From the IMG/VR virus record IMGVR_UViG_3300021962_000778, positions 1 through 20,980 of that record: a DNA stretch of 20,980 nucleotides; one strand, given 5' to 3'. Within the stretch, counting starts at the first letter, position 1. Each line of letters starts with the position of its first letter. This document shows, one piece after another, positions 8,978 through 19,531 of the stretch. A program made the position numbers and the translations under genes. A model generated the notes under the pieces. It was not told the origin of the DNA, ran no database searches, and saw nothing but the letters and a program-made list of their open reading frames with translations. The DNA comes from a virus.

Positions 8978-9156
8978 TGTGGTGGTTTGTTGGTGAAACG
9001 ATCGAAACGATTGAGTTGATAACCTTCTAAGATTGCTTGTCTTATGATATTTTCATAGGAATGAGATCGAAGAGGAATATGTCGATGAAGAAGAAAGTCT
9101 TCACAATCTTCTGCAAGTGCTTCCTTTTCTTCATCCGTGAGATTATCTATATTCAT
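8974..9156 (-). CDS. Small hypothetical protein (60 aa)
   Basis: MNIDNLTDEEKEALAEDCED starts at an ATG overlapping the TGA of the 9153-9527 gene. The N-terminal half is an acidic helix; the C-terminal half is basic (HRHIPLRSHSYENIIRQ). It is part of the coupled chain opened by repeat copy 9. No family is recognised. Confidence 0.75.
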   Translation of the reverse strand: MNIDNLTDEEKEALAEDCEDFLLHRHIPLRSHSYENIIRQAILEGYQLNRFDRFTNKPPQ

Positions 9157-9527
9157 ACCGCCAGTGCTCCAGAGGGAATCTCAACAATTTCGGGCAGTTT
9201 ACTATCATCAAACTCGTGCATATTATAACACACCCACTCACCATTACGGAAGACATATGCAAACTCTTCGCTGTTATTGGGGAGCAGATACTCTACAATA
9301 TCAGAATCAAGACGAGGAGGGCAGTTACCATAGTGTTCTGCTTGCTTGTTATCATTCCAGCAGGCACTCATATCACCACCATCAATCAGTTCAGAAACTT
9401 TCTCTTTGGTGTTGTAATGTGTGGTCAGAATACGACCCAACCACTCAGGATAACCGTCCCAATGATGATAGGCAGACAGAATAGAACCATCTTTGAGTTC
9501 GATGCCGATGCGGGAGCGGGTTGCCAT
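9153..9527 (-). CDS. Conserved phage protein of the MATRSRIG type (124 aa)
   Basis: The N-terminus MATRSRIGIELKDGSILSAY and the HHWDGYPEWLGRIL segment match a widespread conserved phage family of unknown function found in many unrelated myoviruses and siphoviruses. Conserved His and Asp-Gly in HHWDG might form an active or binding site, but this is not established. It is the first gene of the chain opened by repeat copy 9 (ATG 14 bases past the repeat), with no Shine-Dalgarno. Confidence 0.85.
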   Translation of the reverse strand: MATRSRIGIELKDGSILSAYHHWDGYPEWLGRILTTHYNTKEKVSELIDGGDMSACWNDNKQAEHYGNCPPRLDSDIVEYLLPNNSEEFAYVFRNGEWVCYNMHEFDDSKLPEIVEIPSGALAV

Positions 9528-9540
9528 TGCGTTCGTTGCT

Positions 9541-9572
9541 TACACTACAGGGACACTTTAGGGGCTTCAGTT
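9541..9572 (-). repeat. Dispersed intergenic repeat, copy 9 (second subtype)
   Basis: The core CTGAAGCCCCTAAAGTGT is followed by CCCTGTAGT and GTAAGCAACGAA. The TGA inside the core (9569-9567) is the stop codon of the methyltransferase gene. It closes the restriction-modification operon and opens the next module. Confidence 0.95.
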
Positions 9573-10028
9573 CATGAAATCTTCTATGTTATTAGATGAA
9601 GAGAACAGTTTTGCCATATAGAGTTGTTCATAATTACTCTGACCATCAATTATCTTTTCTGGATTAAGAGAATCTCCCATGAGAATCGTACCACCACCTA
9701 GTCTTTTTTTACATAGATCTACATTATCCCTCATCAAATCGACACCGTAAATATCACTCAACGCATCTTCTTCTTTCATATGATGAAACAAAATCTTAAT
9801 CCATTTGACTGCGACTAAGAACTGACCATCACCACAGGCAGGGTCAAGAACTGTTTTCCCTGGTGCAAACTTATCGATCCCACACTTCTTAACCATTCGT
9901 AGAACGAGATCTGTGGGAGTGAATACTTCTGCCGTTGCTTTAATCCTATACTCATCTCGATCAATCTCTCCCATGTAGGAGTGATCGTCCATCTTTTGTT
10001 TTATCTCATCCCATATACTCTCTGACAT
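9567..10028 (-). CDS. N6-adenine DNA methyltransferase, SAM-binding half
   Basis: From ATG 10028 (MSESIWDEIKQKMDDHSYMG) the 153-residue protein holds the N-terminal motifs of a gamma-class amino-methyltransferase: motif X-like AEVFTPTDLVLRM (33-45), motif I VLDPACGDGQFL (60-71), motif II IYGVDL and a motif III-like ILMGDSLNP. It stops before motif IV. The catalytic NPPF lies in the preceding gene (10006-10902), with which it overlaps by 23 bases. The two products should associate to make one enzyme, but the order of the halves is reversed relative to the usual single chain. It ends in repeat copy 9. Confidence 0.85.
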   Translation of the reverse strand: MSESIWDEIKQKMDDHSYMGEIDRDEYRIKATAEVFTPTDLVLRMVKKCGIDKFAPGKTVLDPACGDGQFLVAVKWIKILFHHMKEEDALSDIYGVDLMRDNVDLCKKRLGGGTILMGDSLNPEKIIDGQSNYEQLYMAKLFSSSNNIEDFMN

Positions 10029-10902
10029 ATTCGCTCTCTTGTTTTGTAATTTGGAAAAGGTCAAAGATTTCATCATCGGTCATTTTACGATCAGTTGGCA
10101 AGTTTGGCAACTTACAAAATACTTTTTCATTACCAAAACCAGACCATTTTGCAGTCGTGAGGATATATCCAAACAACAAACTATTAAGATTATGAGTTAG
10201 ATTTTCTCCAGATTCTCGATCATTTACAATAACATAATATGCCATATCTGTTCCACCAAGCACACCATCATCATAAAATGGTTTTGTATATCCACTCCTT
10301 GACCACATTACTTTCTTTTTAGATGCCCACTCTTGCCTTGCTTTGGAATACCAGATCTGCTTATTCGTATGCAGAATGGGGTGAGTGAACTCATCATCTT
10401 TTGTTTTACTAATAAGACCAGTCCCGCGAAGGATATTTACATTATGACAGCTCACATAATCATATTTGACATCTAACTTATCAGCAATATCAAAAATAAC
10501 TTTCTTATGAATAGACAGAGACTCTTTGCATACATCAATAGGCAAATAAAAGATGTTTGAGTTTATCTCTAGATCAAATGTTTCCCGTTCAGTTACAATT
10601 TCGGTTTTTCCTGCACTGGGATTGTTCTCCACCATATAATCAGCGAACGTGCTCCCGATTTTGGGAAAATACGTTTTTGTATCTAAATGCAGAAACTTTA
10701 CTGCCTTAGACTGAAAGATCTTTAGAATCTTGTTGGATGGTGATAGAAAACTACTAGGAGAAACCTGAAGTAGAATACCTCCAGGTTTTAACCAATTATT
10801 AAATGTTCTCTGAGTAAAATCAATCCACAATTTATGTTGTGTCTTCTTCTTATTTGTAGAATCCTGAAACGGTGGATTCGTTGCCACAACATCAAATTGC
10901 AT
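10006..10902 (-). CDS. N6-adenine DNA methyltransferase, catalytic NPPF and target-recognition half
   Basis: The ATG (10902-10900) overlaps the TGA of the endonuclease gene (TGATG) and has AGGAG seven bases upstream, a textbook coupled start. The 298-residue product begins MQFDVVATNPPFQDSTNKKK, so motif IV (NPPF, residues 9-12) is almost N-terminal. LKPGGILLQVSPSSFL follows as the motif VI-VII region. The rest is probably the target-recognition domain (SRSGYTKPF, GTDMAYYV, TAKWSGFGN). No SAM-binding motif I is present; it lies in the next gene. This split between motifs III and IV indicates a two-subunit enzyme. Confidence 0.87.
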   Translation of the reverse strand: MQFDVVATNPPFQDSTNKKKTQHKLWIDFTQRTFNNWLKPGGILLQVSPSSFLSPSNKILKIFQSKAVKFLHLDTKTYFPKIGSTFADYMVENNPSAGKTEIVTERETFDLEINSNIFYLPIDVCKESLSIHKKVIFDIADKLDVKYDYVSCHNVNILRGTGLISKTKDDEFTHPILHTNKQIWYSKARQEWASKKKVMWSRSGYTKPFYDDGVLGGTDMAYYVIVNDRESGENLTHNLNSLLFGYILTTAKWSGFGNEKVFCKLPNLPTDRKMTDDEIFDLFQITKQESEYVREYMG

Positions 10903-12026
10903 CAGCAAACTCCTGCTTTTTTAAGATTAAGATAGGTATTGATCGACGTATTGATTTCCTTGGATTTCTTGGGACGACGTTGACCATAGAACATGTCAAT
11001 CCCCTCTTTCTTGTGAAACTGAGATCCAGAATACTTCTGCTTAGGAAGATGCCATGCACCATTCTTTTGCAGAGTGAAAGGAATCTCAATGCTAACGATT
11101 GTGCCAGAAGAATCCTTTAGAGAGAAGAGAAGTCCCTTACCATTAGTATTATATTCTACCACACATTCTTCAGAGTTTGCACGTTTCAGCATTGCACCAT
11201 ACTTCTCACTGAACAGAGAGCACAGATACTTACCCTGCCCAACCAAAAGCAACTCCTCTTCATAATTGAGTCCTGCCATCTTAATGATACGCTGCTTTAC
11301 AAGATCCTTGGGGATACTATCAAGTGCAGAAACAATAGTTTTAGATGCAGAGAGTCCATAAGATGCACAATCAGATTTCCATTTGGATGCAATGTTTTTC
11401 CAATCTTTTGCTTCTTCACTGTAAGTATAGAAGTTGCGAACAGTTTTATTCACATCTTCGCAATACTCAAACACCTCTTTCAGAGGAGAATAACCCAACA
11501 AATCAAGCAAAGAATTGCGATAATCAGTATCACATCCTTGGAAGATGTTTCCATTGATAGGATTGACAAACGTCCCAACTCCAGCAGACTCAAAGATAAA
11601 GTTATTCAGGAAAGAAACCCAAGTTCCTGAGCACAACTGGATGCGATTAAAACCTTTCTTGTAGTTCTTCAGAGAAAAAGATACATAGTTCTTATCTTCA
11701 AAGCGAACAATAAAATCGCCTTTTAGTTTCTTATCACGAAACTCTTTCTCAACATCAACAATATCAAATTTCTTATCAGGATACTTTACAATTAACTTCT
11801 GGAAGAAATCATCAATGATCTTATCAATATTCTCTTTGTAGACGCTAGCATTAAAGTCAGAGGTAATATCACGATACTCACAATACTCTACAAAAGTATC
11901 TTTCTTTTCTTGCACATCATCAGTGATGGCAACACCATTCTCTACAGCATGTGCCTGCAAAAGATATACAATGTATGCCTCAGCAGCATCCTGAATGAAA
12001 TGATCCTTAGTGCAACCAGCGCCCAT
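10902..12026 (-). CDS. Probable type II restriction endonuclease
   Basis: This 374-residue protein (MGAGCTKDHFIQDAAEAYIV) is the first gene of an operon with the split methyltransferase. At 104-120 it has GDFIVRFEDKNYVSFSLKN, fitting the variant PD-(D/E)XK nuclease core D...hSxK (Asp104, Ser118, Lys120) found in several type II enzymes. The context makes a restriction enzyme the best reading; I cannot name the specificity. It would cut unmodified DNA, such as host DNA or a competing phage. It starts 15 bases after repeat copy 10 with no Shine-Dalgarno. An alternative is another DNA-binding partner of the methyltransferase. Confidence 0.7.
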   Translation of the reverse strand: MGAGCTKDHFIQDAAEAYIVYLLQAHAVENGVAITDDVQEKKDTFVEYCEYRDITSDFNASVYKENIDKIIDDFFQKLIVKYPDKKFDIVDVEKEFRDKKLKGDFIVRFEDKNYVSFSLKNYKKGFNRIQLCSGTWVSFLNNFIFESAGVGTFVNPINGNIFQGCDTDYRNSLLDLLGYSPLKEVFEYCEDVNKTVRNFYTYSEEAKDWKNIASKWKSDCASYGLSASKTIVSALDSIPKDLVKQRIIKMAGLNYEEELLLVGQGKYLCSLFSEKYGAMLKRANSEECVVEYNTNGKGLLFSLKDSSGTIVSIEIPFTLQKNGAWHLPKQKYSGSQFHKKEGIDMFYGQRRPKKSKEINTSINTYLNLKKAGVC

Positions 12027-12040
12027 AACAAAGAATAATC

Positions 12041-12071
12041 GTAATACTAGAACACTTTAGAGGCTTCAGTT
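12041..12071 (-). repeat. Dispersed intergenic repeat, copy 10
   Basis: The core CTGAAGCCTCTAAAGTGT is followed by TCTAGTATTACG, diverging from both subtypes after the spacer. The TGA in the core (12068-12066) ends the glycine-zipper gene. It is the promoter-proximal boundary of the restriction-modification operon. Confidence 0.93.
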
Positions 12072-12437
12072 GTCAATATTGCATCCAACTAAGGCACCGC
12101 CAGCAATACCAAGAGGAATTGCCCACAAACGACCATCACCGCGAGATAGAGCAGCACCAACGCTACCACCAAGAATACCACCTAAAATAGAACCTTCGAT
12201 GCAGGAATCATCTTCGATTCTATTTTGCCTAACAATATGATTGTAATAACAAGGAACTCGCTTTCGGTTAGTTTTTACATATCCACCAACATATTGTCCA
12301 TATCTGTTATAATATCCAGGAACATATTGTTCTGTATTTCGATAACAATACGATTCGGTATAGACTCTTTTATGTTCTGCAAGTGCAGGAAGTGGAGAAA
12401 TCATCAGTGCAGAGAGTAGAACTGCTGGGACTTTCAT
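12066..12437 (-). CDS. Secreted glycine-zipper protein
   Basis: MKVPAVLLSALMISPLPALA is a signal peptide with a likely cut after ALA (about residue 20). A Tyr-rich, Cys-containing middle (YCYRNTEQYVPGYYNRYGQY) precedes a glycine-zipper segment at about 84-117 (GSILGGILGGSVGAAL, then GIAGGALVG), like the 17-kDa antigen/2TM glycine-zipper family. It should act in the periplasm or outer membrane. A role in host envelope alteration is inference. It has its own sigma70-like promoter (12461-12489), and its stop is inside repeat copy 10. Confidence 0.82.
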   Translation of the reverse strand: MKVPAVLLSALMISPLPALAEHKRVYTESYCYRNTEQYVPGYYNRYGQYVGGYVKTNRKRVPCYYNHIVRQNRIEDDSCIEGSILGGILGGSVGAALSRGDGRLWAIPLGIAGGALVGCNIDN

Positions 12438-18394: not shown

Positions 18395-19531
18395 TTAAAT
18401 TTTCCTTGTCATTCCATCATACCAGACTTTAAAACTATATGCTGGCCATTGAGAATATAGGTTATTAATACTTCCTCCACCATAAGTACTAGGAACAATC
18501 TCATATTGATCGCAAGTTTTTGCATAATCAAGATATTCCTGAAAGAATGGATCTTGGAATGTTAATGTCTTCGCATAATTCCAGAAAGGAGTATCATACT
18601 TAGACCCAAACTGATAGTGCCACAATACAAAGTTCTCCGTCTGTTTGATATATCTACGAATTTCCCATTCCCTTTCTCTCATACTACCTTGTTTCAGTAG
18701 AATAGTATCAAAAACTCCTCTTGACCACTCAAGATATGTTTGTGTTGATGATGATTCTAATGGTTCTAAGAAAAACAGACGATTTCCATTAAGAAAAATT
18801 CTTTCATCTACAATTGGACGCTTTGCAACATAATTTTTAAATGAAACGTGCTTCTTAACTTCTACATCAAACATGCTCAGGAAGTTTTTCTCTGCTTCCT
18901 CTTTTGTTGTGATGTTATCGTTATAACAATACCCCACACAATAGTCATGGGATGGTGATGATTCATGTGTCGGAATTACAAATGTCCATCCATCTGGAGT
19001 TGCAACATGGCGACTCCAAAATGCTTCTGCAACATTCCAGTTTGGTTTACCAAGAATTGCTGCATTGATTGGATTTTTTAATTCCTCATAATCAGTGAAA
19101 TCTGTTGGTTTTCCACGACAATCAAAAACATAGTCCGCATCAACACTATGCACATCTAGTACATTACTTTCAGTGACTTTAAAATGTCCTGAATTTAGAA
19201 TTGATCGTTGCATCTCCCATGGACAATAATGCATTGCCATGCGGTCTGCTGGGAAGTTATGGAAGAGTTTATCATTATACTTTCCCCACCCTTCATATAA
19301 AATACCACTTTTAAATGTGGCATGAATATCATTATTATACCAATCAAATCCAGTAGCAGCCCAGAGAAGATTTGGTGGTTCTAATAATGTTGCTTGACCT
19401 ACTCTTTCTGGTTGAGTTTCTGGGTTGTAGATTAACTCAATCTCAATATCTTTTTCTTTTCTAGTGTACCAACCCCAATGAAGTGCGGTGAATGATCCAC
19501 CATTACCCGCACCAACAATTGATATTTTCAT
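18395..19531 (-). CDS. Flavin-dependent (tryptophan-type) halogenase
   Basis: The 378-residue protein has a Rossmann dinucleotide motif GAGNGG (7-12). A Lys at position 74 in ATFKSGI aligns with catalytic Lys79 of PrnA (AFKAAI), and LEPLESSS (255-262) matches the EPLESTG region containing catalytic Glu346. GWTFVIP at 181-187 corresponds to the WxWxIP signature with Phe for the second Trp. The family oxidises chloride with FADH2 and O2 to halogenate indoles. The chain is about 140 residues shorter than PrnA, so the substrate site probably differs; the substrate is unknown. Such genes recur in cyanomyoviruses. A strong terminator follows it. Confidence 0.88.
   Translation of the reverse strand: MKISIVGAGNGGSFTALHWGWYTRKEKDIEIELIYNPETQPERVGQATLLEPPNLLWAATGFDWYNNDIHATFKSGILYEGWGKYNDKLFHNFPADRMAMHYCPWEMQRSILNSGHFKVTESNVLDVHSVDADYVFDCRGKPTDFTDYEELKNPINAAILGKPNWNVAEAFWSRHVATPDGWTFVIPTHESSPSHDYCVGYCYNDNITTKEEAEKNFLSMFDVEVKKHVSFKNYVAKRPIVDERIFLNGNRLFFLEPLESSSTQTYLEWSRGVFDTILLKQGSMREREWEIRRYIKQTENFVLWHYQFGSKYDTPFWNYAKTLTFQDPFFQEYLDYAKTCDQYEIVPSTYGGGSINNLYSQWPAYSFKVWYDGMTRKI

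Follow-up and report, generated by a model that had tools for sequence, protein, structure and literature searches.

A predicted Type II restriction-modification cassette of a T4-like cyanophage, its adenine methylase permuted and divided over two chains

Does a cyanophage encode a restriction-modification system of its own, in which a nuclease gene stands beside an adenine methylase divided into two chains of reversed order? This question was raised by a virus record of 20,980 bases, analysed here over its whole length (the window), in which an earlier note had described an endonuclease-like gene followed by a split, order-reversed N6-adenine methylase. The neighbouring genes point to a T4-like cyanophage (Kyanoviridae), and the flanking DNA was matched by Synechococcus and Prochlorococcus phages.

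Layout of the cassette and its genomic site

The features on which the analysis relies were the following:

12066..12437, minus strand: upstream neighbour (phrog_767), annotated as cAMP phosphodiesterase in related phages; flanks the empty site described below
12052..12069, minus strand: repeat CTGAAGCCTCTAAAGTGT, a promoter-like gene-start element upstream of the operon, one of 11 copies
10902..12026, minus strand: endonuclease-like gene, predicted Type II restriction endonuclease, 374 aa (open reading frame, model, residue conservation, dN/dS)
11979..11981, minus strand: codon of endonuclease E16, candidate helix-A acidic residue (conservation among homologues)
11667..11717, minus strand: endonuclease D104-K120 (KGD-x13-SLK), candidate PD-(D/E)XK core (conservation and model)
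10910..10914, minus strand: AGGAG ribosome-binding site ahead of the NPPF-half ATG (sequence)
10006..10902, minus strand: NPPF/TRD half of the adenine methylase, 298 aa (Pfam Eco57I, phrog_3689, homologues)
10867-10878, minus strand: motif IV NPPF, within the NPPF half
9567..10028, minus strand: SAM-binding half (motifs X, I, II, III), 153 aa (Pfam N6_Mtase, phrog_21201)
9819..9845, minus strand: motif I DPACGDGQF of the SAM half (sequence and alignment A2)
9553..9570, minus strand: repeat copy over the SAM-half stop codon, belonging to the next gene, 9527..9153 (copy positions)
9153..9527, minus strand: downstream neighbour, T4-like GC 66 / phrog_1987, on the other flank of the empty site

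The operon was present as described earlier, running on the minus strand from 12026 to 9567 in the order endonuclease-like gene, NPPF/TRD half and SAM-binding half, with slight corrections to the start codons. The NPPF half extends from an ATG at 10902 to a stop at 10006, the alternative TTG start at 10908 in the list of open reading frames being unnecessary. Its chain opens with MQFDVVATNPPF and hence starts just before motif IV, which places the break between motifs III and IV with the C-terminal half first, as the earlier note had proposed. The SAM half extends from an ATG at 10028 (MSESIWDEI) to 9567, a start shared with bacterial homologues (e.g., MSEELW and MSKSIW), and a longer reading frame starting at 10076 is less likely. 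It contains EVFTP (motif X), LDPACGDGQF (I), IYGVDLMRDN (II), and GGTILMGDSL (III). The stop codon of the endonuclease gene and the start codon of the NPPF half overlap as TGATG, with AGGAG upstream, and the NPPF and SAM genes overlap by 23 bases (10028-10006). Both arrangements, from which coupled starts had been deduced, are real in the sequence and support translational coupling. In profile searches, the NPPF half matched Pfam Eco57I (2.2e-7, profile 73-164 of 171) and phrog_3689 (1.4e-19), and the SAM half matched Pfam N6_Mtase (4.4e-7, profile 23-94 of 311) and phrog_21201 (1e-16).

The genes that flank the cassette were found adjacent to each other in S-SM2 and SynMITS9220M01, 120 and 51 bases apart, with the cassette absent. 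This empty site indicates that the cassette is an accessory insertion, or that it was lost there. The idea of an exchangeable module is therefore supported by the empty site, but not by the flanking repeats that had been offered as evidence for it. The repeat, CTGAAGCC(C/T)CTAAAGTGT, occurs in 11 copies between positions 205 and 18356 of the window, all on the minus strand, where 0.04 would be expected by chance; most copies lie just upstream of a gene start, and its sequence appears promoter-like. Since the copies sit at gene starts, those at either end of the cassette mark the start of the operon and that of the next gene, and the repeats were rejected as module ends. Apart from the window's own copy (L001), the repeat was absent from the loci searched. 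A TAGTAT-like block was observed downstream of the repeat, and the window also carries a tryptophan halogenase-like gene at 18395-19531 (Pfam 2.1e-24).

Architecture of the methylase

The search for single-chain relatives proposed in the earlier note was successful, and four phage contigs (L044, L047, L048, and L049) were found to encode both halves as a single chain, likewise with the order swapped. The fused chain of L048 was modelled in place of the heterodimer (pLDDT 85.1, pTM 0.80). The model aligned with the beta-class enzymes M.MboII (Z 12.7, colinear over model residues 1-442) and M.RsrI (Z 11.3, over 1-461), whereas the alignment with the gamma-class M.TaqI (Z 11.2) covered model residues 1-313 only (TaqI 95-408) and that with M.BseCI (Z 9.8) the NPPF/TRD half. 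By sequence, the nearest solved relative was M.BseCI (E 1.4e-7). Alignment over most of the model with the beta class and half-only alignment with M.TaqI indicated a beta-like order with a gamma-like recognition half. In this way the SAM pocket, for which the earlier note had suggested a complex of the two chains, was checked indirectly, through a naturally fused chain that is predicted to fold as a single methylase.

Beta-class methylases have a DPPY-type motif IV. The window carries NPPF at this place, its aligned relatives NPPF or NPPY, and the recognition domain is TaqI-like, as judged by the fold of the fused L048 chain. The NPPF/Y motif IV is shared with the gamma-class M.TaqI, M.BseCI and CamA; nevertheless, these are single chains of order X-I-II-III-IV-TRD, whereas in the window IV-TRD comes first and X-I-II-III follows on a second chain. 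In the fused relatives X-I-II-III forms a C-terminal domain, unlike in those three enzymes. With the beta-class M.MboII, M.RsrI and CcrM the window shares the motif order IV..TRD..X-I, the fused relative being colinear with the first two, but it differs from them in its motif IV and its recognition domain. On the predicted fold, the swapped order is thus the known beta-class order carried by gamma-type halves.

The reversed order of the halves is real, but it is not unique to the window, being found in the fused phage chains and in bacterial loci (see below). A permutation arising inside the window phage was ruled out, since single-chain forms and bacterial chromosomes with the same split show that the arrangement did not originate there. 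Tandem duplication with loss of the outer halves, the origin suggested by the earlier note, corresponds to the published permutation-by-duplication model (summarised in PMC5944983). No relic of a duplication was found, and a swap in gene order would yield the same arrangement. In the tree, the fused forms made up one group and the bacterial members were nested among split phage forms; midpoint rooting separated a fused clade from a split clade, the root itself being uncertain. Nine entries with in-frame stops in the extracted segments were left out of this tree, and it is likely that the aligned segment had overrun the stop of the gene in these cases. Naturally split or circularly permuted methylases are known, such as M.BssHII and M.Alw26I (PMC5944983); these are cytosine-C5 enzymes broken in the variable region/TRD, whereas the window break lies between motifs III and IV.

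Other methylase arrangements were observed in the course of the searches. Klebsiella phage PKO111 (L007:1524-3459) carries another swapped split methylase of T4-like phages, in which a GIY-YIG domain is fused to the NPPF half (gp114) and the SAM half (gp115) follows with a 14-base overlap; this arrangement has relatives in Klebsiella and Shigella phages. A lone NPPF half was seen near 135-141 kb in ACG-2014f (L005), and in the same phage group the SAM half was matched near 36 kb (KJ019096, near 36.6 kb), possibly a split methylase with unlinked halves. A large protein of Synechococcus phage MA01 (L006:1619-4843), annotated as a Type II restriction subunit, contains, as judged by eye, a helicase-like region and, after it, a methylase region with NPPY.

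The endonuclease-like protein and its linkage to the methylase

The AF2 model of the endonuclease-like protein (pLDDT 94.4, pTM 0.85) was most similar to HinP1I (Z 7.8 and 6.6) and MspI (Z 5.7) when compared by VIA-align, followed by a Cas4-family protein (Z 5.1); a Z of 7.8 falls in the middling range by the tool's own scale. With Foldseek, HinP1I was returned at a non-significant E of 0.25. A profile search against PDB chains gave chance matches only, HinP1I and MspI being absent up to E 10, and no family was found in Pfam, NCBIfam, PHROGs or PADLOC by single-profile searches. The likeness to HinP1I and MspI is therefore structural only and belongs to the model. Among the homologues, K102, D104 and K120 were kept in 37 of 37, E16 in 36 of 37 and S118 in 35 of 37. 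The D104-K120 region spans two neighbouring strands of the model, and the conserved residues fit a PD-(D/E)XK site written D..SxK. Although they are its best structural matches, HinP1I and MspI are more than 100 aa shorter than the window protein. The companion nuclease proposed in the earlier note is hence favoured by a PD-(D/E)XK-like model nearest to two restriction enzymes, and homology to a non-nuclease family, which would have spoken against it, was not found.

Furthermore, the gene was closely linked to the methylase. Searches of viral contigs recovered the NPPF half in 44 contigs and the SAM half at 45 loci, and the SAM half comes next in the same order or is fused. Inspection of the loci found with the NPPF half placed the endonuclease gene upstream in 42 of the 44 contigs, downstream in one (L048) and beyond the contig end in one (L052). 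A direct search with the endonuclease yielded only two loci, probably because the short exact patterns of this search are peculiar to the window sequence. Several of the contigs are near-identical, and 37 distinct endonuclease sequences, some of them partial, were obtained. At two SAM-half loci (L078 and L088) the endonuclease was undetected despite available upstream DNA, the NPPF match at L078 being weak. The dN/dS was about 0.1 (0.08-0.17 across all three genes, 0.08-0.14 for the endonuclease), which places all three genes under purifying selection. The order endonuclease-NPPF-SAM in dozens of contigs, together with this selection, indicates more than chance. The nuclease and methylase genes are adjacent and separate, as in Type II restriction-modification systems.

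Several departures from the common layout were also seen. An extra gene of ~375 aa lies between the endonuclease and the NPPF half in about a dozen contigs, among them the closest relative of the window (L008:3347-4468; another example is L015:2884-4011); it gave no convincing family match and is ParB-like by eye. The endonuclease homologue at L048:5434-6597 stands after the fused methylase, not before it. In L050, the NPPF half lies in two frames.

A nuclease gene convergent on the methylase gene is a common Type II layout. Six bacterial loci, five from Actinobacteria and one from a Limnochordia MAG, were found with the endonuclease alignment. In each of them both methylase halves are present, swapped and overlapping as in the window and about 50% identical. 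Four of the loci (L095, L096, L097, and L099, the last from Curtobacterium ammoniigenes NBRC 101786) have the nuclease gene convergent to the two methylase genes, and all three genes are codirectional in L094 and L098. Ordinary chromosomal genes were seen nearby, by eye, in L095 and L098. The bacterial system is rare: one of 296 genomes sampled from the phylum of G001 contained it, namely G001 itself. Plasmid records gave no match to the L048 endonuclease query.

Proposed system and its role

We consider it probable that these genes of a T4-like cyanophage form a Type II restriction-modification cassette whose adenine methylase is permuted and made of two chains. The main puzzle for this reading is posed by P-RSM6 and S-SZBM1, where an endonuclease gene with the conserved residues was found and a methylase half was undetected in a search run without a positive control, a situation hard to reconcile with a toxic nuclease unless the DNA is otherwise protected. 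Both would be accommodated if the methylase pair shielded phage DNA against restriction by the host, the endonuclease-like protein being a separate nuclease, for repair, recombination or host-DNA degradation, with no target site in common. Phage methylases without a nuclease are common, which also favours such a separation. Nevertheless, we regard it as unlikely in view of the almost invariable linkage of the genes in viral contigs, their pairing on bacterial chromosomes as well, convergent in four of six loci, and the best fold matches, which are Type II restriction endonucleases.

It is considerably less probable that the endonuclease-like protein is not a nuclease and instead serves the methylase as an additional subunit for DNA binding or regulation: the absence of a family in four libraries and of a significant Foldseek match would agree with this, whereas the conservation of E16, D104 and K120 and the position of HinP1I and MspI at the top of the structural list argue against it. 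Least probable of all is a decaying, disused remnant of a bacterial restriction system, which the divided NPPF half of L050, a single contig, might suggest, but which is at odds with the low dN/dS and with intact frames in dozens of contigs.

In the restriction-modification reading, the 374-aa protein would be a PD-(D/E)XK restriction endonuclease, and the 298-aa and 153-aa chains would constitute one N6-adenine DNA methyltransferase. The former chain would supply the catalytic face with NPPF together with the target-recognition domain, and the latter the SAM pocket, the two rebuilding one Rossmann methylase fold, with coupled translation keeping the halves balanced. Gene content, gene order and their conservation, the predicted single-methylase fold of a fused relative and the conserved residues of nuclease type were observed directly in the analysis. 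From these we infer that the two chains form a heterodimer, that both enzymes act on the same site, and the role of the cassette, which is most likely the protection of phage DNA while unmodified DNA is cut. During infection, the methylase would protect the phage DNA and the nuclease would cut unmodified DNA, that of the host chromosome and possibly of rival phages.

A comparable strategy is described in passages of the review PMC7019647, according to which the nuclease and methylase genes of chloroviruses lie side by side and the packaged nucleases are believed to initiate degradation of the host DNA; a test for exclusion of a second virus did not ascribe it to these nucleases. Compared by description, the chlorovirus systems (CviAII, CviJI) resemble the window in having a virus-encoded nuclease beside a methylase. 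They differ in that chloroviruses are eukaryotic algal viruses, and a split methylase is not described in those passages (PMC7019647). A wider proposal, which we put forward tentatively and with some doubt, is that the cassette combines an architecturally distinct class of adenine methylase, whose gamma-type halves follow the beta order on two chains that must pair, with a restriction endonuclease of a new family. T4-like cyanophages would use the two to cut host and rival DNA while marking their own, so that the strategy of the chloroviruses would have a counterpart among prokaryotes.

The literature searches, made in a library of incomplete coverage, found no title or abstract describing the cassette. 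Its nuclease would represent a family without an entry in the four family libraries searched, and the evolution of permuted DNA methylases can be tested directly on the naturally occurring split and fused forms. If a conserved nuclease-methylase cassette is indeed present in cyanophages, these phages carry the same type of weapon that bacteria use against them.
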